64,000 nt of DNA from Candidatus Poribacteria bacterium (lineage in GTDB: Bacteria > Poribacteria > WGA-4E > PCPOR2b): positions 157,673 to 221,672 of the forward strand of contig JAPPKS010000023.1 in assembly GCA_028819845.1 (NCBI GenBank), read 5' to 3'. The position numbers and the translations under genes are program-made. Below, piece after piece: positions 17,242-28,557 of the stretch. The notes under the pieces were generated by a model, which was not told the DNA's origin, searched no databases, and was given only the letters and a program-made list of their open reading frames with translations. Within the stretch, counting starts at the first letter, position 1. The number at the start of each line of letters is the position of its first letter.

Positions 17242-17270
17242 TTGACATCTTATCAATCGTTTGTTAACAT
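17242..17270 (+). promoter_or_regulatory. Strong sigma-70-type promoter
   Basis: TTGACA (17242-17247), a 17-base spacer and TAACAT (17265-17270). It points at the small frame at 17314, and no larger gene follows for more than 400 bases. Confidence 0.6.
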
Positions 17271-17313
17271 AGTGTTATAGTTTGCCGCGACTTCAGATGG
17301 AGAGATTTGGACT

Positions 17314-17454
17314 GTGTCACATTCATTATCACGCGCCGCCGTGGACAAGACGCATAATAGAGGCATACCCGCTGTACATTTCGTGTCTGCCTTGATTCCC
17401 ATAATCGACGTCATTTGCGCGTCTTACTGTGGTGGGCTGATAAAAACGACCTAA
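17314..17454 (+). CDS. Possible 46-residue small protein
   Basis: GTG at 17314 opens a 46-codon frame ending with TAA at 17452-17454. It starts MSHSLSRAAVDKTHN and has a hydrophobic middle (HFVSALIPIIDVICASY). GGAGAG lies about 10 bases upstream, and the promoter at 17242 would start transcription near 17277, which is why I list it. The stop lies before the candidate left attachment site, so it is not obviously cut by the insertion. The frame is short, and no relatives are known to me. Confidence 0.3.
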   Translation: MSHSLSRAAVDKTHNRGIPAVHFVSALIPIIDVICASYCGGLIKTT

Positions 17455-17484: not shown

Positions 17485-17500
17485 TGCCCATTATCGAAAC
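17485..17500. other. Candidate left attachment site
   Basis: TGCCCATTATCGAAAC matches TGCCCATCATCGAAAC at 24939-24954 in 15 of 16 bases. The two lie just outside the first and last element genes. Confidence 0.45.
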
Positions 17501-17608
17501 TTTTTTCAATACCGCAAAAAAACCCACCAACCCCTACTACCACTAGCCTAGATGCACTTTCAACCGCATTAACTCCTAGCCAATAGCAAAATTATCAGTA
17601 AAAAAACT

Positions 17609-17638
17609 TGATATTTTTTGACGGCAATTCGTATAATA
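17609..17638 (+). promoter_or_regulatory. Integrase promoter
   Basis: TTGATA (17609-17614), an 18-base spacer and TATAAT (17633-17638). The context CGTATAATAAA is shared with the promoter before the primase-like gene. Confidence 0.5.
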
Positions 17639-17708
17639 AATTATCAGTCAATTTTGACAATTTAGAACGCCTAACAACCCGCAAGGGTAAATCAATAGGG
17701 GATACGAA

Positions 17709-18635
17709 ATGAAATTGAACGCTGCCGTCAATAAGTTTGAATCTTACCTCGAGACTCAAGACCGCTCCCCCGCAACAATTCAGGGTTACAAATTCGACTT
17801 GAAAATGTTTGTTGAGTTCATACTAGAGGACTATGACGGGGAAATGCCATCCGTTGAGACGCTAGATTTCTCAGACGTTGGCAACTTCAAGCGTCATGCA
17901 ATAGACGCAGGGAAAAAGCCGTCAACAATAAATCGCTATATTATCGCAGTGCGCAAACTCTATAAATACCTAGTAAAAGAGGGCATTGTGAGTGAGAACA
18001 TAGCCGATGACGTTACAAGGCTAAAAGAGGACGCTGCCTCCCCCAAGTGCATAGCAAAAGAGGACATTCGCAAAATTGAACGGGCAATCAAAAAGTCCGC
18101 AAAAATTCGTAACATGGCAATGTTCTCAGTTCTCAAAAATTCGGGGATTCGAGTGTCTGAACTCTGCAACCTGAAGTGGACAGACTATAAACCGACTAAG
18201 GCTTCGGGGGAGGCTACTGCACTGTTGCATATACGGCATGGAAAAGGCAGCAAGTCACGCCTTGCATACCTGAACAGCGAAGGGGTTGGATTCCTACGCA
18301 AATATAGAAAAATTCAGGACGCAAAACGTAACAGAAATCCTATACAAGACAGCGAATATATTTTTGCGTCAACTCATTCCCGCTGCCTAGACAAACCCGT
18401 TACGGAAGTGTCAATTCGCAAAATGCTAAAGTCGTACTGTGAACGCTGCGGGATTGAGACTATCAAGCCGCATGACTTACGGCATACATTCGCAAAAAAT
18501 CTAATTGACGCTGGGAAATCCGTTACAGTCGTTGCCAAGCTGCTAGGACATAGCAACCTCAATATGGTATTCCGCTACACAACCCCAACCGAAGTTGACC
18601 TGTCCGCAGCAGTAGAGGAAATCGCCTGGACATAA
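17709..18635 (+). CDS. Tyrosine recombinase (integrase)
   Basis: A 308-residue site-specific recombinase. The N-terminal core-binding (SAM-like) domain spans about 1-90 (SPATIQGYKFDLKMF; INRYIIAVRKLYKYL). The catalytic domain spans about 115-300 with the full set of residues: Arg148 in NSGIRVSEL, Lys179/182 in HGKGSKSR, His256 and Arg259 in HDLRHTF, His281 in LLGHSN and Tyr290 in FRYTTP. It would cut and rejoin the attachment sites of this element. It resembles XerC/D-type enzymes in size, but lies with capsid genes and away from any dif-like context. The promoter is at 17609 and the terminator at 18657. The ribosome site is AGGGGA. Confidence 0.93.
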   Translation: MKLNAAVNKFESYLETQDRSPATIQGYKFDLKMFVEFILEDYDGEMPSVETLDFSDVGNFKRHAIDAGKKPSTINRYIIAVRKLYKYLVKEGIVSENIADDVTRLKEDAASPKCIAKEDIRKIERAIKKSAKIRNMAMFSVLKNSGIRVSELCNLKWTDYKPTKASGEATALLHIRHGKGSKSRLAYLNSEGVGFLRKYRKIQDAKRNRNPIQDSEYIFASTHSRCLDKPVTEVSIRKMLKSYCERCGIETIKPHDLRHTFAKNLIDAGKSVTVVAKLLGHSNLNMVFRYTTPTEVDLSAAVEEIAWT

Positions 18636-18656
18636 ATTAGCAACCCGAACCCGAAC

Positions 18657-18691
18657 GGGGAGGTGCCTTACCGGTGCCTCCCCTTTTTTTT
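18657..18691 (+). terminator. Intrinsic terminator after the integrase
   Basis: GGGGAGGTGCC and GGTGCCTCCCC form an 11-bp stem with two G-T wobbles, followed by TTTTTTTT. Confidence 0.8.
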
Positions 18692-19003
18692 GCCCATCAC
18701 CGAATTCTACCTGAACACCTCCCGCAGCGTACCCAAAACCCGCCAAATTTAGCCACTGTGGGCAGTTTGAGACTTTTTTGGTGTCCTAATGCCCCAAAAG
18801 CGAGAAATCGTCATGAATACCGCCTAAATTGCCCAAGGTGCAAAAATTAGAGTTTAGGGGGTTGCAATGTTTACGAATTGACGGCAAACCGCACTCGACG
18901 CTTTTTTGCGTGTTAATGTACGATTCGCTTTACATTTCTTCCTGCTGCTGATTATAACTACAGTGACAGCTACACGAATCCGAACACACGGGGAGTGCAA
19001 CTC
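18692..19003. other. Spacer before the HTH gene
   Basis: No gene seen. TTGACGGCAA near 18879 repeats a sequence found in the integrase promoter region, but no matching -10 box was settled. Confidence 0.4.
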
Positions 19004-19207
19004 ATGACAAATAACGATTACAAGTTCATACTTGAGATGACGCTGTTAGGACTATCGAATACGGAAATCGCAGAGAAGCTAGCCGTTAATAAACAGACCA
19101 TCAGCAGAGCACGGAATAGACAACCTTATAGAAAACTCGAGGGCTATCTAGCTGCAGACCTGAGGGCTACTCCGTCATACAAAATCGAACACATAATCGA
19201 GAATTGA
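19004..19207 (+). CDS. Small helix-turn-helix protein
   Basis: A 67-residue protein. LLGLSNTEIAEKLAVNKQTISRARNR (about 12-38) reads as a helix-turn-helix of the sigma-70 region 4/LuxR type, with the usual turn residues. It has no other domain, so it is probably a DNA-binding regulator of the element. ATG 19004 is preferred because GGGGAG lies 8 bases upstream. It lies just before the structured leader of the first capsid gene, which makes control of the capsid genes a fair guess, but no operator can be named. Confidence 0.65.
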   Translation: MTNNDYKFILEMTLLGLSNTEIAEKLAVNKQTISRARNRQPYRKLEGYLAADLRATPSYKIEHIIEN

Positions 19208-19212
19208 AGGGC

Positions 19213-19368
19213 TTGGGGTTAAACCCAAAAAATCTCGTTGTTACCTCCAACGAGTCGGCAGCTTCGTACACTGCCGAAAAGGATTCTCGCTAACGGGGGG
19301 GGATGGGGGTTACGTCATCTTGTCTGTATGCAGCGCAGACAACCTACAATAGACCGCCATCCCCCCCG
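19213..19368 (+). promoter_or_regulatory. Structured leader of the capsid genes
   Basis: Four inverted repeats lie in a row: TTGGG/CCCAA (19213-19228), CTCGTTG/CAACGAG (19234-19254), TCGGCAG/CTGCCGA (19255-19277) and GGGGGGGATGG/CCATCCCCCCC (19296-19367). The last encloses a GTCTG/CAGAC hairpin (about 19322-19340). It ends 29 bases before the capsid start. An RNA control region, a packaging signal or a replication signal are all possible. Confidence 0.5.
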
Positions 19369-19396
19369 CTTTTACAACCGAACAACAGGAGACACA

Positions 19397-20644
19397 ATGA
19401 CAAAAAGAGAGCAATTTTACGAACTATCGCACAAGTACAACATCCCAGCAGAGTTCACGGCATCCGCACTAAGACAGGACATAACGATTTCAGATTTCAA
19501 GGACGCTATTTTAGAACGTCTGCAGCAGGGCAACCTTGACCGAAAAAGCCATAGTACGTTTAGCCTTCGGAGGTTAATTTTAGACAAAGCCGATAACGCA
19601 GCGCTTAGGGATGAAGAGCAGTCCGTAACAGACCGCATAAAAGAGCATAGGCAACCCAATAGCACGTCTAGGGGCATCCCGCTGCCAGCGTCAATTTTGA
19701 GAGAGATTCCAACGGGGAAAAGGGACTTAACGGCAGGGGTTGACAGCGCTGGGGGCTACACAGTCGATGACGAACTGCAAGCGTTAATTTTTCCGCTGGA
19801 TCCGCAAACGCCGATTTTTAATGCTGCTACGAAGGTTGACAGCAAAAGTCCGTACACGATCCCGATAAAACAGACGCCTACAAGCGCTCAGTGGGTTGCT
19901 GAGACGCAAGCCGCATCCGAACAAAATATAGTCTTTAATGCTAAAAACGTAACATCGCATTATTTGCGCAGTTTTACCTCGTACAGCAGAGAGCTACTAT
20001 CGCAGAGTTCAACCGACATTGAGAACCTTGTGAGAGACGATTTGCGCAAGGCGATAATGTTTGGCATAGAGAACAAATTAGCAAACAGCACAGCTGGCAG
20101 TCTCAATAGTCCGCTGGGGCTTGCTAATATGAATCTCAACGAGGTTACATTTACGGCAGCAAACGGGTTGACTTATGAGAACGTTCTCGAGGTTGAGGAG
20201 GCAGTGTTAAATCGTAACGTAGCAGTCCAAAATTCCGAAGGAAATCTACAGTCGGGGGAACGGGGCTATCCGCTGCGCCTGGCATGGGTTGCAAGTCCTA
20301 AAATGCGGAGGCTAATGCGCAAAACACCGCAGCTGCCTAACGGATCAATTCCCATATGGGATACTGGGGACGTTGGCAATGACTCTGTGACAATTCACGG
20401 GGAGGGCAGTCCGAACATGCCAAGAGTCCTAGATTATAGAGCGGAAATCTCAACCGACATCCCCGATGCTCATGCCTATTTCGGCAACTGGAGAGACCTC
20501 GTTTTGAGCACGTTCTCAGGTTTTGATCTGCTAGTCGATCCGTACACGTTAGGACACCAAGGCATCATTAGGGTTTTTGCGTACACATCAATTAACTTTT
20601 TTCTCAGACATACCCAATCCATATCTCGACTCAAGGAGATTTAA
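19397..20644 (+). CDS. HK97-fold major capsid protein 1
   Basis: A 415-residue capsid protein of the HK97 gp5 type. Residues 1 to about 110 look like the scaffold-like delta region (helical and charged, with FSLRRLILDKADNAA). After it come the start of the mature subunit (LTAGVDSAGGYTVDDEL), the axial-type QWVAETQAASEQN, LRSFTSYSRELLSQSS with the spine helix after it, and a C-terminal FDLLVDPYTLGHQGIIRVFAY strand block, as in phage capsids. ATG 19397 is preceded by AGGAGA; the frame extends upstream without a ribosome site. No prohead protease gene is present to remove the delta region. It is 5 bases before the second capsid gene. Confidence 0.88.
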   Translation: MTKREQFYELSHKYNIPAEFTASALRQDITISDFKDAILERLQQGNLDRKSHSTFSLRRLILDKADNAALRDEEQSVTDRIKEHRQPNSTSRGIPLPASILREIPTGKRDLTAGVDSAGGYTVDDELQALIFPLDPQTPIFNAATKVDSKSPYTIPIKQTPTSAQWVAETQAASEQNIVFNAKNVTSHYLRSFTSYSRELLSQSSTDIENLVRDDLRKAIMFGIENKLANSTAGSLNSPLGLANMNLNEVTFTAANGLTYENVLEVEEAVLNRNVAVQNSEGNLQSGERGYPLRLAWVASPKMRRLMRKTPQLPNGSIPIWDTGDVGNDSVTIHGEGSPNMPRVLDYRAEISTDIPDAHAYFGNWRDLVLSTFSGFDLLVDPYTLGHQGIIRVFAYTSINFFLRHTQSISRLKEI

Positions 20645-20649
20645 TTAGC

Positions 20650-21618
20650 ATGAAATACGACTTTAGTTTGTCTCAATATGCAAAGGCTAAAATTGACAAA
20701 GTCGAATACAAATCCAACGCAGTCAATGACTCTGCGGATTTGCTTTACGACAGCATTTCACTTAGGGCTTTGACGGCAGGAACCGAACCCGAACTGATAG
20801 ACAAAAACGTTGACGGTTCAGAGTTCAATAATTTCTATTCGCAGAGTGTCCTATTGAGGTTTGCAACTGTCATCTCAGGACTCAAAACATCCCTCGTATT
20901 GACCAAAAAAACACAATCGGGGACTTTGGTTGCAAACGCAGTAGGGGAGAACGCTGCAAACATTTTTTCACCCGAACAAACGGGGGGATCCGTAACCCTA
21001 AATCCGAAGTTTATTCGAGTGTCAATAGACGTTAGCAAAACGCTGATTATGCAGTCATCCCGTACCCTAGACCAGCTGCTAATAACCGAACTCAGAGACG
21101 CCTTGACGGAGGAGTTAGAACGGCAATTATTCAAGGGTACTAGCAGCAACGAAATAACGGGTATATTCTCGACTGCTAACGTCTCAAAAATTAGCTGGGC
21201 TGGCTTTGCTACATTGACGGGGGATGGTGCATTTGACAAATTGACGGCAGCGGAAAAAACGCTTGGGGAAGCAAAGGTGCCTCCGCCGTTTATTTGGACA
21301 TACAACAGCGCATCCCGTGAACACCTCCGCAAGCTAGGCAAACATTCCGAACCTCTATTAAAAATGGACGCAATCGGGGGGGCTAGAATGCTTGGCTATA
21401 GGGGCTACTCAACCGAACAAATGACAGACGATCAAGTGTACCTACTCAACCCGTCATACTTAATAATCGGCATTTGGAATGAGTCACGGGATGAACGCCT
21501 TGAGGTATTTGTCGATCCGTACACAAAATCGAATCAAGGGCTTGTGTCTATCACCGGTGCTATATATGCTAACGCTGCACTCATTAAACCCGAATCATGT
21601 GTCATATTACACGCTTAA
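20650..21618 (+). CDS. HK97-fold capsid protein 2
   Basis: A 322-residue second capsid-type protein, clearly different from the first. It has no long delta region and reaches the mature-type sequence by residue about 40 (ALTAGTEPELIDKN). It shares with capsid 1 the glycine- and acid-rich loop (GENAANIFSPEQ against AETQAASEQN), a spine helix (ITELRDALTEELERQLFKG) and the closing VDPYTKSNQGLVSITGAIY. Such a pair could form a mixed shell, or one could be a decoration or size-determining variant. AAGGAG precedes the ATG, and the gap to capsid 1 is 5 bases, so both are on one transcript. Confidence 0.82.
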   Translation: MKYDFSLSQYAKAKIDKVEYKSNAVNDSADLLYDSISLRALTAGTEPELIDKNVDGSEFNNFYSQSVLLRFATVISGLKTSLVLTKKTQSGTLVANAVGENAANIFSPEQTGGSVTLNPKFIRVSIDVSKTLIMQSSRTLDQLLITELRDALTEELERQLFKGTSSNEITGIFSTANVSKISWAGFATLTGDGAFDKLTAAEKTLGEAKVPPPFIWTYNSASREHLRKLGKHSEPLLKMDAIGGARMLGYRGYSTEQMTDDQVYLLNPSYLIIGIWNESRDERLEVFVDPYTKSNQGLVSITGAIYANAALIKPESCVILHA

Positions 21619-21891
21619 CCCGAACTATCGCACCTTGGCGAACCTGGTGCGTTTTTGGGCATGTTCTGCGAAGGGTATTATGACACCATCAGGAGGCTAA
21701 ACTGCGAACCTGACCGAACCTCGAGACGATTTCCCCTATGCAAACGGAGGGATGGCTGACGAGGATGGGATGGCTATGAATTTTTCACGGGTCCTTGCTA
21801 GGAAAAGCCAGCGGGTTGCCAATGCCCGCAGTTTACGACATCTGAGGGATTTTTAGCATTCATCCCCAAAACCGCATTACAAACAACCGGC

Positions 21892-21920
21892 TTACAGTTT
21901 TGTAGGCTAAATCGTATAAT
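21892..21920 (+). promoter_or_regulatory. Promoter for the primase-like gene
   Basis: TTACAG (21892-21897), a 17-base spacer and TATAAT (21915-21920). It shares CGTATAATAAA with the integrase promoter. Confidence 0.5.
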
Positions 21921-21938
21921 AAAAGCATCTGTCTTGTC

Positions 21939-21994
21939 CTCTAGGGGGGACGGCTTGACCTTGAGAAAGTCAACCGACTCAACCTCCCCTAGAG
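21939..21994 (+). promoter_or_regulatory. Nested stem-loop before the primase-like gene
   Basis: CTCTAGGGG (21939-21947) pairs with CCCCTAGAG (21986-21994), enclosing a smaller TTGAC/GTCAA hairpin (21955-21973), then TCTCATTTTT. It may be an attenuator or a replication signal. The layout is like that of the capsid leader (outer stem around a small inner hairpin). Confidence 0.5.
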
Positions 21995-22033
21995 TCTCAT
22001 TTTTACAAGGCTAGGTGCTAGACAGGACAGACA

Positions 22034-23224
22034 GTGAACTTTAACCCATCAGTCTCATTATTCCAAAGCGTCAAGTCAACACACTCTAGCAGCATCCCCT
22101 TCCTAGACGTTCTGCAGCGCAACCTTCCGAACTATACCGAACACGAAAAAAACATTTTAGCCTACAGACACGGGGAAATCTCAAAAGAACAGAGAGAGGA
22201 TTTAATACCCGCATATACGCCTTCGGGGGTTGTTGGCAAGCGGAGAGTCCTACTCAACCCGTCCTTGTTGCTGGGGATGGACATTGACAAAAAAATAGCG
22301 AACGTTGACCACCTCGAGAGAGAGATAGCAAGCAATGAATTAACGTTTGCAGTCATGAAGTCGATTTCGGGGAGGGGGCTTGTTGTATTTGTTAGAATTG
22401 ACAGACCAGCCTCGAGACAAAACCATCCCCGCATTGTTGACGCTGCAGCAGCAGAACTTGGGCTTTGTGAACATTTGGATCCAGGGGGGAAGGCGCAGAC
22501 TCAACCTCGATTTTTAAGCCTAACCTCAACGGATGAATTATTCATAAACCATGACTCCCGAATCTATGAGTTCGCAGACGTTCAACCCGAACCTGAAATC
22601 CAAGAGTACTCAACCGAACACATAGACATCCCCGTTAAAATTGTTACGGAAATAATGAGTCGCTGGCTTGACGGCAGATGGTTAAACCATGCAAACGTCC
22701 GCAAACTTTGGGCTGGCAGCGTCAAACGTTACACGGATGAAAAATCCCGTAACGAAGCAGACTTAGCACTATGTAGACACCTAGCGTGGTACCTTTTGGA
22801 CGCTCATGGGGTTGTACTGCCATATTACCTCAATAAATTGAACCTTGGCGATCCTGGTGCGTCCTTGGGGCTAATTATCGATGGTTGCTTTAGGCATTCT
22901 AAACTAATGAGACCGAAATGGGCTATACGCCATGACTATAGGCAGCGAACAATCGGCAGAGCTATCGCCTTAGTTCAAGAGGAGGGGGGCTACGATTACA
23001 CGAAGGCAAATGGTTATAACCCGTTGACCGAACAAGTGCTAGACGTTCTGCAGCAGCACAAACAACCTTTAACCCTCAGGCAAATCCGAATCAAAATAAA
23101 CCGAACAACGAGAGAGGTTGACAATGAAATCCAACGCCTACTCTATGCACACAAAATCAGAGAGATTCGCAGCCGTAAAACTCAAAACAAGCGGAATATA
23201 TTACGTTATACACTTGCAGGTTAA
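22034..23224 (+). CDS. BT4734/VirE-N-like primase-type protein
   Basis: A 396-residue protein. Residues about 60-190 match the BT4734-like (VirE N-terminal) fold of archaeo-eukaryotic-type primases: LLGMDIDKK (Asp83/Asp85, candidate metal ligands), SISGRGLVVFVRID and the late PRFLSLTS. The C-terminal 65 residues (PLTEQVLDVLQQHKQPLTLRQI) look like a winged helix. The usual helicase partner is not visible. It probably acts in replication of the element. GTG at 22034 is the first codon of the frame; the ribosome site is weak. An alternative is a DNA-binding replication initiator without priming activity. Confidence 0.7.
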   Translation: MNFNPSVSLFQSVKSTHSSSIPFLDVLQRNLPNYTEHEKNILAYRHGEISKEQREDLIPAYTPSGVVGKRRVLLNPSLLLGMDIDKKIANVDHLEREIASNELTFAVMKSISGRGLVVFVRIDRPASRQNHPRIVDAAAAELGLCEHLDPGGKAQTQPRFLSLTSTDELFINHDSRIYEFADVQPEPEIQEYSTEHIDIPVKIVTEIMSRWLDGRWLNHANVRKLWAGSVKRYTDEKSRNEADLALCRHLAWYLLDAHGVVLPYYLNKLNLGDPGASLGLIIDGCFRHSKLMRPKWAIRHDYRQRTIGRAIALVQEEGGYDYTKANGYNPLTEQVLDVLQQHKQPLTLRQIRIKINRTTREVDNEIQRLLYAHKIREIRSRKTQNKRNILRYTLAG

Positions 23225-23621
23225 AAGTCGGGTTTCGTTTTATTAAAAGTTCACGCTAACGGAATCCTTAAATCCCATCCAGGCTAGTCTATGACAGGGA
23301 TAACTGGGATTTAGTGGTGTAAGACACACTGGGATGTATTTATCTTTTAAGAGAGAGAGAAAAGAGAGGAAAATAGCAACTTTTCTAACAGCGTCAAATC
23401 ATAACCTTTTACCTAAACTAAACCCGACTTTTACAGCATATAACACGCTGCAGCGCATTAAAATCGAATAAAGGCATTAAACCCGTATTTAATGCAAAAA
23501 ATTACCTGACCTTTAGGGGCTATAAACCCGCACTATGACACAGTCCAGACGGCAGCGGAATCATTTATTGCAAAAATACCGATTTAATGCTAAAATAAAC
23601 GGCAAAAATTGGAGGGCAGCA
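23225..23621. other. Spacer within the element
   Basis: No gene is seen. A purine-rich run (AAGAGAGAGAGAAAAGAGAGG, about 23348-23369) is the only notable feature. Confidence 0.45.
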
Positions 23622-23831
23622 ATGACTTATAACGTCTACCTACAAGACCACAGCGGAATAACAACTCGAGAAGACACTATTGATGCAAAGGATGACAAAC
23701 AGGCAAAGGCAAGGGCTACGACTTGGGCAGACCTCCCCGCAGTTGACAAATGGAGGTCTATACCGACCGCAGGAACCGTATTTAAGCGCAAGCTGGGCTA
23801 TGGATTCAGCGTTCTATTGACTATAATTTAA
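23622..23831 (+). CDS. Small unknown protein of the element
   Basis: 69 residues, starting at ATG 23622 behind GGAGGG. Short strand-rich start (MTYNVYLQDHSG), charged middle (DTIDAKDDKQAKARATTWAD) and a hydrophobic end (FSVLLTII). No family is recognised. The frame extends upstream to 23535, but without a ribosome site. Confidence 0.5.
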   Translation: MTYNVYLQDHSGITTREDTIDAKDDKQAKARATTWADLPAVDKWRSIPTAGTVFKRKLGYGFSVLLTII

Positions 23832-24046
23832 CAGCACTAAAGCGAGGGAAGATTTCAACATGAATATCGAATTGCAAAAAAGAACTGACAGCGCCAACCT
23901 AAAAAATCGAATACAAGTTTCGATATATGCAAAATTTTTTCACTAAAACTAAACACAGTATGGTAAAATATCGTCTATACGCTACACTTTTCAAATATTT
24001 TATGCAAATTGAAAACGAGATAACCACACATGGAGGACATTTGTCA

Positions 24047-24283
24047 ATGCGCCTAATACGCTCGGGCGATAAGCATTTTACGACCCTAACAGGAGTGGCT
24101 GGCATTATCGATTTGTTTGGGACAGAGGGTTACATTTTATACAACCAAATTAAGAGTAAATCCCATCTGCGCACCCGACAGTCTGATTGCGAATCCATTA
24201 AATCAGACTGGGCTAATGTAGGAAATTCTCTGACAATAGCAATACACAAAGCACAGGAGTTGTATGGCTCGCGGAAAGCGTAA
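24047..24283 (+). CDS. Small unknown protein of the element
   Basis: 78 residues, started at ATG 24047 because GGAGGA lies 9 bases upstream; the longer frame (from 23927) has none. LTGVAGIIDLFGTEGYILYNQ is its most distinctive stretch. I recognise no domain. It overlaps the DUF2335 gene by 20 bases in another frame, so the two are probably made from one transcript. Confidence 0.5.
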   Translation: MRLIRSGDKHFTTLTGVAGIIDLFGTEGYILYNQIKSKSHLRTRQSDCESIKSDWANVGNSLTIAIHKAQELYGSRKA

Positions 24284-24692
24284 CTTACAAAACCAACCAA
24301 GCAAACAGCAAAAAGCCGAACTAAGACAGTTACTCGTCGAGTCGTTTGAGCAATATTCTGGGCCAATACCTCATCCACAAGTCATGAAAGATTACCAAGA
24401 AATTTCACCCGACATCGTGGAGCGAATACTAACAATGGCAGAGGAAGAATCTAATTCTAGGCGATTGCTAGAGGAGAGAGTCATAGAAAACTCGCACAAA
24501 CAAATTGTTGGCGGACAACGTGGTGCCCTCATTTTAGGAATTAGCGGATTGGCTGCTGCCGTAGCCATTGCCTATTTCAATCCTTCATGGGGCGGTGCCG
24601 TCGGTATATCTGCAATAGCAAGCCTTATTATATCTCTTGTAGTTAAGCGCAGAAATGATTATTCGCATAACAACAATGGCATCAGTGAATAA
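24264..24692 (+). CDS. DUF2335 membrane protein
   Basis: 142 residues. YSGPIPHPQVMKDYQEISPDIVERILTMAEEESNSRR is the DUF2335 signature (split here over about residues 31-68), followed by two close hydrophobic segments (about 87-105 and 110-127) and a polar tail. The family consists of small predicted membrane proteins, common on mobile elements and of unknown role. Being the last gene of the element, it may act at the host membrane, but nothing shows lysis activity. A terminator follows at 24718. Confidence 0.72.
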   Translation: MARGKRNLQNQPSKQQKAELRQLLVESFEQYSGPIPHPQVMKDYQEISPDIVERILTMAEEESNSRRLLEERVIENSHKQIVGGQRGALILGISGLAAAVAIAYFNPSWGGAVGISAIASLIISLVVKRRNDYSHNNNGISE

Positions 24693-24717
24693 TTAACCCA
24701 TTAGCAACAACTGGGAT

Positions 24718-24747
24718 AGCCGAGGGCATTTAGTTCTCGGCTTTTTT
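24718..24747 (+). terminator. Intrinsic terminator after the DUF2335 gene
   Basis: AGCCGAG (24718-24724) pairs with CTCGGCT (24736-24742), followed by TTTTT. Confidence 0.75.
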
Positions 24748-24938
24748 ATTGAATAGACATCACCCGAAATAGCAATGCAATAGACAAAAAGGCATACTAT
24801 TATCGAAACCTTTTTTTGTTAAAAGCCCCTAGTTTTTTGAAGTTCAAATATAGCCTTAAAGCCGCATGAAACTTATGAAAACTAAGCACTGCCTAAAAAC
24901 CCGCAGACATGTAAAAATCGGCATTTAACCCCAGATAC

Positions 24939-24954
24939 TGCCCATCATCGAAAC
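24939..24954. other. Candidate right attachment site
   Basis: TGCCCATCATCGAAAC differs in one base from the copy at 17485. It forms the left arm of a terminator hairpin, a kind of target some integrases use. Confidence 0.45.
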
Positions 24955-24981
24955 AGGCTTCGATGGTGGGCGTTTTTATTT
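24940..24981 (+). terminator. Intrinsic terminator overlapping the right attachment candidate
   Basis: GCCCATCATCGAA (24940-24952) pairs with TTCGATGGTGGGC (24959-24971) with one wobble pair, then TTTTTATTTT. Confidence 0.75.
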
Positions 24982-25074
24982 TCGGTGAATATCTGTCATA
25001 GCCATTACCATCCATGTGTGCACACGCCGCGTTAGGTGCGGATTCCAACCGAACCTATGGACTGGATGAATACC

Positions 25075-25096
25075 GGTTCGGTTAAGAAACCGAACC
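25075..25096. repeat. Perfect hairpin in the ileS leader
   Basis: GGTTCGGTT (25075-25083) and AACCGAACC (25088-25096) with a 4-base loop. A related GGTGCGGATTCCAACCGAACC lies just upstream, near 25035. It may be a genome repeat of the GGTGCG/CGCACC kind also seen at 17195; it does not have T-box hallmarks. Confidence 0.5.
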
Positions 25097-25185
25097 TGCC
25101 GCAGTGTATAAATCTTCATAGGATTCACTATAGCTTTTGGAAGGTTTTGGACGCTCCAACGGTTTGCGTTAGGGAGGAAGAGCGT

Positions 25186-28100
25186 ATGTTTAAGGAAGTA
25201 CCCAACACAGTCGATTTTATCGCGCAGGAACACCAAGTGCTTGAGTTCTGGCGCGACAGCGACGCGTTTAATAAGCTCAAAGCGTTAAGACAAGACGGCC
25301 CGCGCTGGAGTTTCATTGATGGTCCGATTACAGCCAACAATCCGATGGGGGTTCACCACGCTTGGGGACGCACTTACAAGGATCTCTATCACCGTTTCAA
25401 GGCGATGCAAGGTTACCAAACGCGCTATCAAAACGGGTTTGATTGCCAAGGGCTCTGGGTTGAGGTCAATGTCGAGCGTGAAATTGGATTTAAGAGTAAA
25501 AAGGATATTGAATCCTACGGGCTGGCTGAATTTGTCAACGCTTGCAAACAGACGGTGCTTCGATACGCCGCAACGCAGACTGAGCAGTCGATTCGGTTGG
25601 GTTACTGGATGGAGTGGGATGACCCGCAGCAGTTACGGTATCTAGAAGCGAAGATGGCTGAAGACCCATCGGCAATAGTCACCGTCGAAGCACCGAATGG
25701 CTCCGTCACCGACACAGCGGAACAGCTCGTCGGACGGCTGGGCATGCCGCAGTTGGGCGGTTCTTATTTCACATTCTCAGACGAAAACAACTACACGATT
25801 TGGTCGATGCTCAAGAGTTGTTTCGATCGCGGTTGGATTTACAAGGGTACAGATGTCATGCCTTGGTGCACGCGATGTGATACGGGCATCAGCCAGCACG
25901 AGATTGTGACCGACGGATACCGGGAGTTGAGCCATAAAAGCATTTTCCTGCGCTTTCCGCTGCGCAACCGCCCCGATGAAAGCCTGTTAGTTTGGACGAC
26001 GACGCCGTGGACACTGACTAGCAACGTAGCGGCAGCCGTGCATCCCGATCTCAGCTACGTCCTCGTTGAACAAAATGGACAACGCATGTGGCTGGGCAAA
26101 GGGGCATTGGAGAACGCCATTCGAGGTTCTTTTCAGGTGCTTGAAGAAAAATTGGGTTCTGCGTTAGAGGGTTGGACCTATGACGGCCCATTTGATGAGC
26201 TGCCCGCCCAACAAATCGCCGGAGCAGCCGCCCAGCACAGCATCGTGCTGTGGGACGAAGTGGGAAAAGCCGAGGGAACGGGAATTGTTCATGTAGCGCC
26301 GGGGTGCGGAGCAGAGGACTTTGAGCTGAGCAAAGCCCAGAATCTGGCAGTCATTGCGCCGTTGGAGGCGGGAGGAATCTATGGAGAAGGGTTCGATTGG
26401 TTGACGGGCCGGTATGTACATACCGTCACCGAAGAAATTTTCGAAAATCTGAAGCAGAAGGGTATTGTGTATCGCCTGGAGGACTATACTCACCGTTATC
26501 CGGTTTGTTGGCGATGCGAAGAGGAACTGGTTTTCCGCTTGGTAGACGAATGGTATATCTCAATGGGTGAGCAATTCGACAAGCCCTATGAGGAGATTGC
26601 CGAAGCGGAAAAGCGCCAAAATTTACGCTACCAGATGATGGAGGTAGTCCTAAACCAAACCAACTGGTATCCCGCGTTTGGACGTGCGCGCGAACTTGAT
26701 TGGCTGCGCAATATGCACGACTGGATGATTTCCAAGAAGCGCTACTGGGGTCTAGCGCTTCCAATCTACGAATGCGGCGAATGCAGCCACTTCCATGTCG
26801 TCGGGAGCCGCGAGGAATTGAAGGAACGCGCAGTTGAGGGCTGGGAGGAGTTTGAGGGGCATACGCCGCACCGCCCCTGGATTGATGCCGTGAAAATCGC
26901 ATGCCCACAGTGCAGTGCGCCGGTTTCACGGATTCAAGATGTAGGCAACCCGTGGTTGGACGCGGGCATCGTCACCTTCAGCACGCTTCAGTACCGCACC
27001 GATAGAGACTACTGGAAAAAGTGGTTTCCCGCGGATTTAATCAGTGAAAGTTTTCCGGGCCAATTTCGCAACTGGTTCTACTCGCTAATCGCCATGAGCA
27101 CTGTCATGGCAAAACACGCACCCTTCAGGCATATCTTCACTTACGCAACACTGTTTGGCGAAGACGGGAAACCGATGCACAAATCCTCGCCAAATGTAAT
27201 CTGGTTCGATGAGGCGGCGGAGAAGATGGGAGTGGACGTGATGCGCTGGATGTATTGCGTCGCGAAACCGGAGCAAAATCTACTTTTTGGTTATAAACGA
27301 GCGGACGAGGTTCGGCGCCAGTGCTTGATACCGTTGTGGAACTTGTATAGCTTCCTCGTCACTTATGCGAATCTTGACGGGTGGCAGCCAGACAGCAAGC
27401 TCTGGGCGGCGTATGCGGACAACCTGCACCGTAATACTTTGGATCGCTGGATATTATCGCGGCTACAGGTAACGGTCCGCGAAGTAACCGACGGACTAGA
27501 GACGTTTGAGCCGGATAAAGCCTGCCGCGCGATTGAGCGTTTTCTTGACGATTTATCAAATTGGTATGTGCGGCGAAGCCGCCGCCGCTTCTGGAAGTCG
27601 GAGGCGGATGCGGACAAACAGTCCGCATACCGGACGCTCTACAGCGTTATGGTAACCTTCACACATCTGCTAGCGCCGTTCGTCCCTTTCGTCACAGAGT
27701 CAATCTATCAAAACTTGGTACGCCGAGTTGATCCGACAGCGCCGGAATCGGTACACCATGTCAATTGGCCGCAACCGCACGAAGCGTTGCTGGATGAATC
27801 CCTCATTAAGGCGATGGGAACAACCCGCACGGTGGTGACATTGGGGCTTGCCGCCCGCGCCTCTGCGAACCTGAAAGTTCGGCAACCGCTGAGCCGCGCC
27901 TTAGTTTCCCTACCCGACAGACAGAAGTTAGACGATGAGATGATTGTGTTGATTACGGACGAACTCAACGTGAAGTCCGTGGAGTTTGTGGACGATGCCA
28001 ATCAACTGCTACGATACCGTCTGCTGCCGGATAACCGCATACTGGGACCGCGGTTTGGGGCGCGCTTCCCGGCGGTGAGGCGAGCGCTGGATGAGTTAAG

Positions 28101-28557
28101 CGACCAGGATACAACGGAAGCCGTGCGGCAGTTGGAAAGCGGCGGCGCAATTGCACTGGAATTGGATGACGGGATGGTTCCGCTCGCCGCGGAGGAGGTC
28201 ATCATCCAGCACGAACAACCCGAAGGGCTGGCGGTCACCACGGAACAGGGGATGACGGTTGCTGTTGATACGCAACTTACTCCGGAACTAGTTTCGGAGG
28301 GATTGGCACGCGAGGTGGTGCGCCACATTCAGAACTTGCGGAAAGCTGCCGATTTCAAGCTAGACGATCGAATTGTCACCACGTATCAGGCTGACGAGGA
28401 ACTCATGCAGGTGATTGCCGATTGGTCGGCGTACATTGCGAACGAAACGTTAAGCGTGGAATTACGCGCGGGGCAACCAATGGCAGAGGCTGCGCAGGCC
28501 GAAGACACCGTGTCCGGACTTCAGTTGAAATTAGGGGTGAGCCGGGCAGTTGTGTAG
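25186..28557 (+). CDS. ileS: Isoleucine-tRNA ligase, atypical form
   Basis: A 1123-residue class I aminoacyl-tRNA synthetase that charges tRNA-Ile. It holds a Rossmann catalytic core with an inserted editing domain (WTTTPWTLTSNVAAAVHPD) and an anticodon-binding and C-terminal domain (VRQPLSRALVSLP; LVSEGLAREVVRHIQNLRK). The HIGH motif appears as GVHHAWGR and KMSKS as PMHKSS, so neither is canonical; I know this variant from other uncultured phyla, and it is probably active. The start is ATG 25186 behind GGGAGGAAG; an in-frame open stretch to 25036 crosses the repeat hairpin and has no ribosome site. It is monocistronic, with the attachment-site terminator about 200 bases upstream. Confidence 0.93.
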   Translation: MFKEVPNTVDFIAQEHQVLEFWRDSDAFNKLKALRQDGPRWSFIDGPITANNPMGVHHAWGRTYKDLYHRFKAMQGYQTRYQNGFDCQGLWVEVNVEREIGFKSKKDIESYGLAEFVNACKQTVLRYAATQTEQSIRLGYWMEWDDPQQLRYLEAKMAEDPSAIVTVEAPNGSVTDTAEQLVGRLGMPQLGGSYFTFSDENNYTIWSMLKSCFDRGWIYKGTDVMPWCTRCDTGISQHEIVTDGYRELSHKSIFLRFPLRNRPDESLLVWTTTPWTLTSNVAAAVHPDLSYVLVEQNGQRMWLGKGALENAIRGSFQVLEEKLGSALEGWTYDGPFDELPAQQIAGAAAQHSIVLWDEVGKAEGTGIVHVAPGCGAEDFELSKAQNLAVIAPLEAGGIYGEGFDWLTGRYVHTVTEEIFENLKQKGIVYRLEDYTHRYPVCWRCEEELVFRLVDEWYISMGEQFDKPYEEIAEAEKRQNLRYQMMEVVLNQTNWYPAFGRARELDWLRNMHDWMISKKRYWGLALPIYECGECSHFHVVGSREELKERAVEGWEEFEGHTPHRPWIDAVKIACPQCSAPVSRIQDVGNPWLDAGIVTFSTLQYRTDRDYWKKWFPADLISESFPGQFRNWFYSLIAMSTVMAKHAPFRHIFTYATLFGEDGKPMHKSSPNVIWFDEAAEKMGVDVMRWMYCVAKPEQNLLFGYKRADEVRRQCLIPLWNLYSFLVTYANLDGWQPDSKLWAAYADNLHRNTLDRWILSRLQVTVREVTDGLETFEPDKACRAIERFLDDLSNWYVRRSRRRFWKSEADADKQSAYRTLYSVMVTFTHLLAPFVPFVTESIYQNLVRRVDPTAPESVHHVNWPQPHEALLDESLIKAMGTTRTVVTLGLAARASANLKVRQPLSRALVSLPDRQKLDDEMIVLITDELNVKSVEFVDDANQLLRYRLLPDNRILGPRFGARFPAVRRALDELSDQDTTEAVRQLESGGAIALELDDGMVPLAAEEVIIQHEQPEGLAVTTEQGMTVAVDTQLTPELVSEGLAREVVRHIQNLRKAADFKLDDRIVTTYQADEELMQVIADWSAYIANETLSVELRAGQPMAEAAQAEDTVSGLQLKLGVSRAVV

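Follow-up and report, generated by a model that had tools for sequence, protein, structure and literature searches.

A putative phage satellite of Candidatus Poribacteria with a tandem pair of capsid genes, inserted in a predicted ileS attenuator

We analysed a 64,000-nucleotide stretch (contig JAPPKS010000023.1, referred to here as the window) of a metagenome-assembled genome (MAG) of Candidatus Poribacteria, a group with sponge-associated members. An intact element of 7.45 kb lies at window positions 17486-24954. Its eight open reading frames (ORFs), every one on the + strand, encode an XerC/D-type integrase, a small helix-turn-helix (HTH) protein, two capsid proteins (cap1 and cap2), a primase-like protein, a 98-aa product, a protein designated s118 and a DUF2335 membrane protein. 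The eight proteins were scanned against Pfam, PHROGs and NCBIfam, and all the parts named in a preliminary description of this DNA (integrase, HTH protein, two capsids, primase-type protein, small ORFs and DUF2335 protein) are present. All stranded features given below are likewise on the + strand.

The genes for cap1 (19397-20644; 415 aa) and cap2 (20650-21618; 322 aa) stand in tandem, and the three family collections concur in identifying both products as phage HK97-type major capsid proteins (MCPs). Against PF05065 they scored 78.2 and 79.5 bits (E-values 9e-22 and 4e-22; cut-off 24.2 bits) and against TIGR01554 84.1 and 67.0 bits (1e-23 and 1.6e-18; cut-off 27.5 bits), with a further match of cap1 to phrog_617 (7e-35). 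Ahead of a cleavage-site-like sequence, RDLTAGVDSAGG (the RDLTAG motif), cap1 carries an N-terminal pro-domain of ~110 residues; in cap2 the pro-domain is cut to about 40 residues ahead of RALTAGTE. The AlphaFold2 model of cap2 is moderate (predicted TM-score, 0.64), and its top structural match in Foldseek is the capsid of phage vB_DshS-R4C (8gta; E 4e-15). Since encapsulins also have the HK97 fold and are found among the Foldseek matches, the two proteins might instead form a domesticated, encapsulin-like compartment that happens to be carried on a mobile element, as the preliminary description had allowed. However, the top matches by sequence as well as by structure are phage MCPs. In a profile search of the PDB with the capsid proteins (E 0.01), all matched chains were named as capsid or head proteins of phages, of a gene transfer agent or of a capsid-forming phage-inducible chromosomal island (cf-PICI), and no encapsulin fell below that threshold. 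Moreover, cap1 keeps its pro-domain, integrase and primase-type genes share the element with the capsid genes, no gene of the cargo-enzyme type accompanies them, and the element was found in one of 85 Poribacteria genomes. We regard the compartment as highly improbable.

A tandem capsid pair is not unique to this element, as it occurs in real contractile-tail phages (two-MCP phages), whose capsid proteins are the closest relatives of cap1. One such phage occupies a 25-kb contig of another Poribacteria MAG (G064:C517, VYFM01000064.1, SB0677_bin_25) and carries tail sheath and Tail_P2_I proteins; the others are IMG/VR contigs L018, L019 and L020, the last being a near copy of part of L018. The gene order portal, S78 protease/MCP1 fusion, MCP2 was observed in L009/L022, L018, L020 and L019, the S78 domain of the fusion having been tested in L022 and L018. 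What these phages share with the element is the tandem of HK97 capsid genes; they differ from it in being full phages with a portal, a protease fused to MCP1, a sheath and a baseplate. Identity between cap1 or cap2 and the two-MCP phage proteins is 23-37%, and a tree of the mature capsid domain sets cap1, cap2, MCP1 and MCP2 apart from single-MCP phages with support of 100/100, if the root is placed between them. MCP2 contains an inserted domain of ~145 aa that is missing from cap2. As a separate observation on these phages, a domain of ~90-145 aa inserted in MCP2 is repeated in the tail sheath, a baseplate-type protein and a tail protein (phmmer, 1e-7 to 1e-22; L022 5191-6657, L018 8108-9532, L008 10088-11635, L018 12676-14211 and L018 14157-15119).

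The remaining functions of a phage head and tail are missing from the element. None of its eight proteins gave a convincing match to terminase, portal, protease or tail families, which confirms the preliminary description on this point. The sole hint of packaging was a weak match of the HTH protein to the small-terminase family phrog_2538 (9e-4), which we did not take as evidence of a terminase. Between the attachment (att) sites that bound the element on both sides, there are thus no genes for producing particles autonomously. Genome-wide family searches of the MAG (96.6% complete) revealed no further PF05065 outside the element and none of the portal- and terminase-directed families PF04860, PF05136 and PF03237, the terminase search consisting of PF03237 (Terminase_6N) only. 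Any helper would therefore need to be external, and the assembled part of the MAG harbours none of the two-MCP type. Since cap1 keeps its pro-domain and RDLTAG site while the element encodes no protease, a helper protease would be expected for maturation. The same gene set separates the element from tailed phages and prophages, which have terminase, portal and tail genes. It might nevertheless be what is left of a two-MCP prophage, eroded until integration, replication and capsid genes were kept by chance, a history that would suit both the tandem order of the capsid genes, as in full phages, and the finding of a single copy. Yet random decay is unlikely to have removed all portal, protease, terminase and tail genes while leaving both capsid genes open through the HK97 core. 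The 7.45 kb showed neither pseudogene nor frameshift, and promoter-like sites, structured leaders and terminators give the operons a tidy structure. On balance, we consider an eroded prophage unlikely.

The insertion is precise, with att sites and an integrase. A 15-bp core, GCCCAT[T/C]ATCGAAAC, lies at both ends of the element and is identical at 14 of 15 positions: attL (GCCCATTATCGAAAC, 17486-17500) is, by comparison with relatives, the host copy of the 5' arm of a terminator, and attR (GCCCATCATCGAAAC, 24940-24954) was identified by repeat comparison. Four related genomes provide empty sites, in which leader and hairpin are contiguous without the element, and the family's eight other genomes all contain parts of the right-border DNA, which in several cases lie directly before ileS. 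In the window, ileS (25186-28557), which encodes isoleucyl-tRNA synthetase (IleRS) and is present in single copy according to a genome search of the MAG, lies to the right of the element. To the left lies the host ileS leader promoter, TTGACA-17-TAACAT (17242-17270; consensus scan), which in relatives stands before ileS as TTGACATC...GTTACCAT. It is followed by a 46-aa leader peptide with six Ile residues (17314-17454; ...SALIPIIDVICAS...GGLIKTT, including MSHSLSRAAVDKTHNRGIPAVHFVSALIPIIDVICASYCGGLIKTT) that the insertion has severed from ileS. The leader peptides of relatives have 42-43 aa, Ile runs (SIGIISIIIGIP, e.g. MSHVPSAHGLTSETESRNIRLSIGIISIIIGIPRDGGLMETK) and a C-terminal DGGLM-T. In four of the five genomes inspected, promoter, Ile-run leader and terminator hairpin form a compact unit ahead of ileS, with the hairpin (e.g. 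GCCCACCATCGAAG...CTTCGGTGGTGGGCGTTTTT) a few tens of bases before the start. The sequence GATGGTGGGC at the leader end repeats the 3' arm of the terminator, so that it would be able to pair with the 5' arm as an antiterminator. Leader-peptide attenuation is an established mode of control of amino-acid operons, and we infer that the ileS unit is a leader-peptide attenuator for isoleucine. The unit was seen upstream of ileS in Poribacteria loci L043, L044, L045 and L047, and its window parts are 17242-17454 and 24939-24972.

Since leader and promoter lie to the left of the element and hairpin and ileS to the right, insertion took place within the 5' arm of the terminator. A replacement for that arm comes from the right end of the element and makes the hairpin complete again (24939-24972; terminator scan and folding; 14 pairs; 5' arm from the element, 3' arm from the host), as conserved before ileS in relatives. 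The element thus splits the Ile-rich leader from its terminator and restores the 5' arm of the latter. Of the terminators and near-identical end repeats noted in the preliminary description, the repeats are real and terminator scanning placed terminators after the integrase gene (18657-18683) and the DUF2335 gene (24718-24742), but the terminator at the right end turned out to be the hairpin of the host attenuator. As the MAG has no other IleRS gene, expression of ileS must now start from a promoter within the element's right end or shortly beyond it, where a consensus scan ahead of ileS found none on the + strand. If the attenuator is as predicted, the insertion offers a clear case of an integrase targeting a regulatory hairpin.

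In our view, the element has about an even chance of being an integrative phage satellite with its own capsid pair, which builds or helps to build the shell and obtains protease, portal, terminase and tail from a two-MCP phage. The capsid-encoding satellite of the preliminary description is accordingly the best fit to the precise insertion, the element's own integrase and primase-like gene, the phage-type HK97 capsids and the missing helper-type functions, but the cf-PICI label attached to it does not fit. Induction, excision, assembly and packaging might then proceed as follows. On infection by a two-MCP phage the element would excise, replicate with its primase-like protein and make cap1 and cap2. 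In phage T4, gp23 forms hexamers and gp24 pentamers; by analogy, cap1, with its fuller pro-domain, may form hexamers and cap2 pentamers. The helper protease would cleave cap1, and the helper portal, terminase and tail would complete and fill the particle. Published capsid scaling gives about 11.8 kb for T=3 and 18 kb for T=4 (PMC7762592), by which a 7.45-kb genome would call for a shell below T=3 or for a dimer packaged in T=4. Only tentatively do we extend this to a minimal class of satellites that would carry nothing of the particle except a complete two-protein shell (hexamer and pentamer MCPs), take the rest from Poribacteria two-MCP phages, and integrate in the attenuator of an essential tRNA synthetase gene, where the terminator arm is rebuilt and leader and promoter end up 7.45 kb away.

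Known satellites that bear capsid genes either encode a full head-and-packaging module (cf-PICIs and Mulch/Flayer) or a single capsid homologue that alters the helper head (Ccm). The former resemble the element in having their own capsid protein, and the MCP of the cf-PICI EcCI2 is among the Foldseek matches. However, they encode portal, terminase and a protease or scaffold, whereas the element has capsid genes only (PMC10690885). Because cf-PICIs carry their own protease, portal, connectors and terminase along with the MCP and borrow the tail alone (PMC10690885), we did not file the element among them; it does have an integrase (17709-18635) and an HTH protein (18995-19207), and PICI-specific regulators were not identified. 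Islands of the PICMI (phage-inducible chromosomal minimalist island) and P4 types are likewise small integrated satellites with few genes, but PICMIs carry no capsid-remodelling gene (PMC10803314), and P4 uses a scaffold, Sid, that acts on the helper capsid protein (PMC10690885).

The closest working precedent is a cos-type Staphylococcus aureus pathogenicity island (SaPI) with Ccm, such as SaPIbov5: this integrated satellite has its own MCP homologue, complete with pro-domain, and takes the rest of the head from its helper (PMC8569155). By its genes the element matches this trait, with cap1 as the homologue and no protease, portal or terminase. Ccm is a single MCP homologue that occupies the pentamers of the helper shell (PMC8569155); it requires the helper capsid protein and forms no capsid alone, whereas the element, found in Poribacteria rather than Staphylococcus, has both members of a two-MCP pair. 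As the main alternative, it is possible, if rather doubtful, that cap1, cap2 or both act in the manner of Ccm, co-assembling with the MCP pair of a helper to force a smaller or different shell, while the helper supplies the rest. Redirection requires no SaPI protein other than Ccm, an MCP homologue with a delta domain (PMC8569155), and it would agree with the divergence of cap1 and cap2 from the two-MCP phage proteins and with the lack of a scaffold, portal or protease gene. Nevertheless, Ccm is one gene, a pair that mirrors the two-MCP phages suits a self-sufficient shell at least as well, and no helper is known.

Phage satellites are a known kind of element, and two capsid genes without the rest of the head would be a new variation on it, judged from a single copy and its genes. 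To our knowledge, this is the first satellite-type element proposed for Poribacteria, and the two-MCP phages can be named as its candidate helper family. With exactly two shell proteins and no other head gene, it would imply that shell identity is separable from packaging, and it would offer a small system in which to test how labour is divided in two-MCP phages.

Several results weigh against a satellite supplied by two-MCP phages. A short-word blastn comparison for a packaging site common to the element and these phages gave nothing beyond chance. Branching within the group of cap1, cap2, MCP1 and MCP2 is poorly supported (35-65%), too poorly to assign cap1 as the orthologue of MCP1 or cap2 as that of MCP2. 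Structure prediction, which the preliminary description had proposed for both capsids, placed cap2 with HK97 capsids but returned a low-confidence model for cap1 (predicted local distance difference test, 56). The top Foldseek matches of that model are still HK97 capsids (2e-9), and the claim for the cap1 fold stands on its sequence families because the model is poor. Finally, searches of the 85 Poribacteria genomes, run with capsid and primase queries, and of IMG/VR, phages and the genome collection turned up no second copy of the whole element. Conservation of gene order, also raised in the preliminary description, therefore holds for the capsid pair, which is conserved in real phages, but not for the whole order, which was found nowhere else.

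Across the collections searched, only this one example of the element was found. Matches to cap2 occurred in two of 98 genomes, its own and that of the G064 phage, and this phage alone was recovered when a capsid profile was run against 84,980 genomes. For the primase-like protein, the other members of the set of 85 Poribacteria genomes yielded nothing beyond remote, partial matches, and no relative emerged when IMG/VR was scanned with the single sequences of cap1, primase and integrase. A tblastn search of phage records with cap1 and cap2 retrieved phage capsids at 23-28% identity, those opened being from single-MCP phages, and a plasmid search gave three remote capsid matches, no primase match and no element of the same kind. 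The sole phage record with a primase match, MT835758 (unverified), looks like a mixture of host and mobile DNA and was set aside.

Both the capsid and the primase operon have structured leaders. A long G-run/C-run hairpin (19296-19367; -57.2 kcal/mol, z -4.46) precedes the capsid genes, and a leader with a hairpin and T-run (21928-22030; -43.5 kcal/mol, z -3.91) precedes the primase gene; in each case none of 200 shuffles folded as well. This suggests RNA-level control of both operons. A search of Rfam gave no match. Consensus scanning placed promoter-like sites before the integrase gene (TTGATA-18-TATAAT, 17608-17637; 11 of 12 matches) and before the primase operon (CTTACA-18-TATAAT, 21891-21920). 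A terminator-like hairpin after cap2 (CGCACC...GGTGCGTTTTT, 21628-21656) is weak (z -1.2) and not clearly better than shuffles. A direct repeat of 33 bp (85%) links 21627-21659, after cap2, with 22837-22869, inside the primase gene.

The integrase (308 aa) is a tyrosine recombinase of the XerC/D-like type (PF00589, 2.4e-32; TIGR02225, 1.4e-49, below the equivalog cut-off). Its relatives in the phylum, at 32-37% identity and about one per genome, resemble host XerC/D. The HTH protein (67-70 aa) matched PF00196 (GerE; 1.5e-4) and PF13384 (3.8e-4) weakly, and may be a regulator or resemble a small terminase subunit. In Pfam, the primase-type replication protein (22034-23224; 396 aa; PF22763, 2e-10; PF08800, 9e-6; phrog_1829, 7.5e-13) combines an N-terminal BT4734-like domain with an NrS-1-type HBD domain, and no helicase domain was detected in it. 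A longer relative of 737 aa, with BT4734-like_N, PriCT_2, D5_N and DUF5906 domains, lies at a contig edge in G064 (L057 39-2252). The 98-aa ORF (23535-23831) matched no family in Pfam, PHROGs, NCBIfam or PADLOC scans, and PADLOC detected no defence system among the small ORFs scanned. The s118 gene (23927-24283) is the partner of the DUF2335 gene (24264-24692; PF10097, 3.8e-9), whose product belongs to phrog_3996 (2.4e-25), of the accessory/host-takeover class; this class is no more than a hint at a role in host takeover or exclusion. Homologues of s118 stand beside DUF2335 in two other Poribacteria, and the two-gene cassette there (L052 8718-9381 and L053 8913-9664) lies outside recognisable phage context. 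The two genes could form an exclusion, defence or toxin-antitoxin-type pair. DUF2335 neighbourhoods in other Poribacteria, tried as a route to related elements, led to none.

Three further observations concern the right border and its hairpin. An internal att-like copy (CTATTATCGAAACCTTTTTTT / ATTATCGAAACCTTTTTTT, 24795-24815) lies ~145 bp inside the right end and resembles the left end of the element; it is possibly the remnant of a lost tandem element or an integrase arm site. Hairpins related to that of the ileS attenuator recur in genomes of the family, one of them directly upstream of a DAHP-synthase (3-deoxy-D-arabino-heptulosonate 7-phosphate synthase) gene (L013). Between the attenuator hairpin and ileS, an interspersed repeat (TGCGGATTCCAACCGAACC...CCGGTTCGGTT...AACCGAACCTGCCGC, 25033-25132) has about a dozen more copies in the genome.

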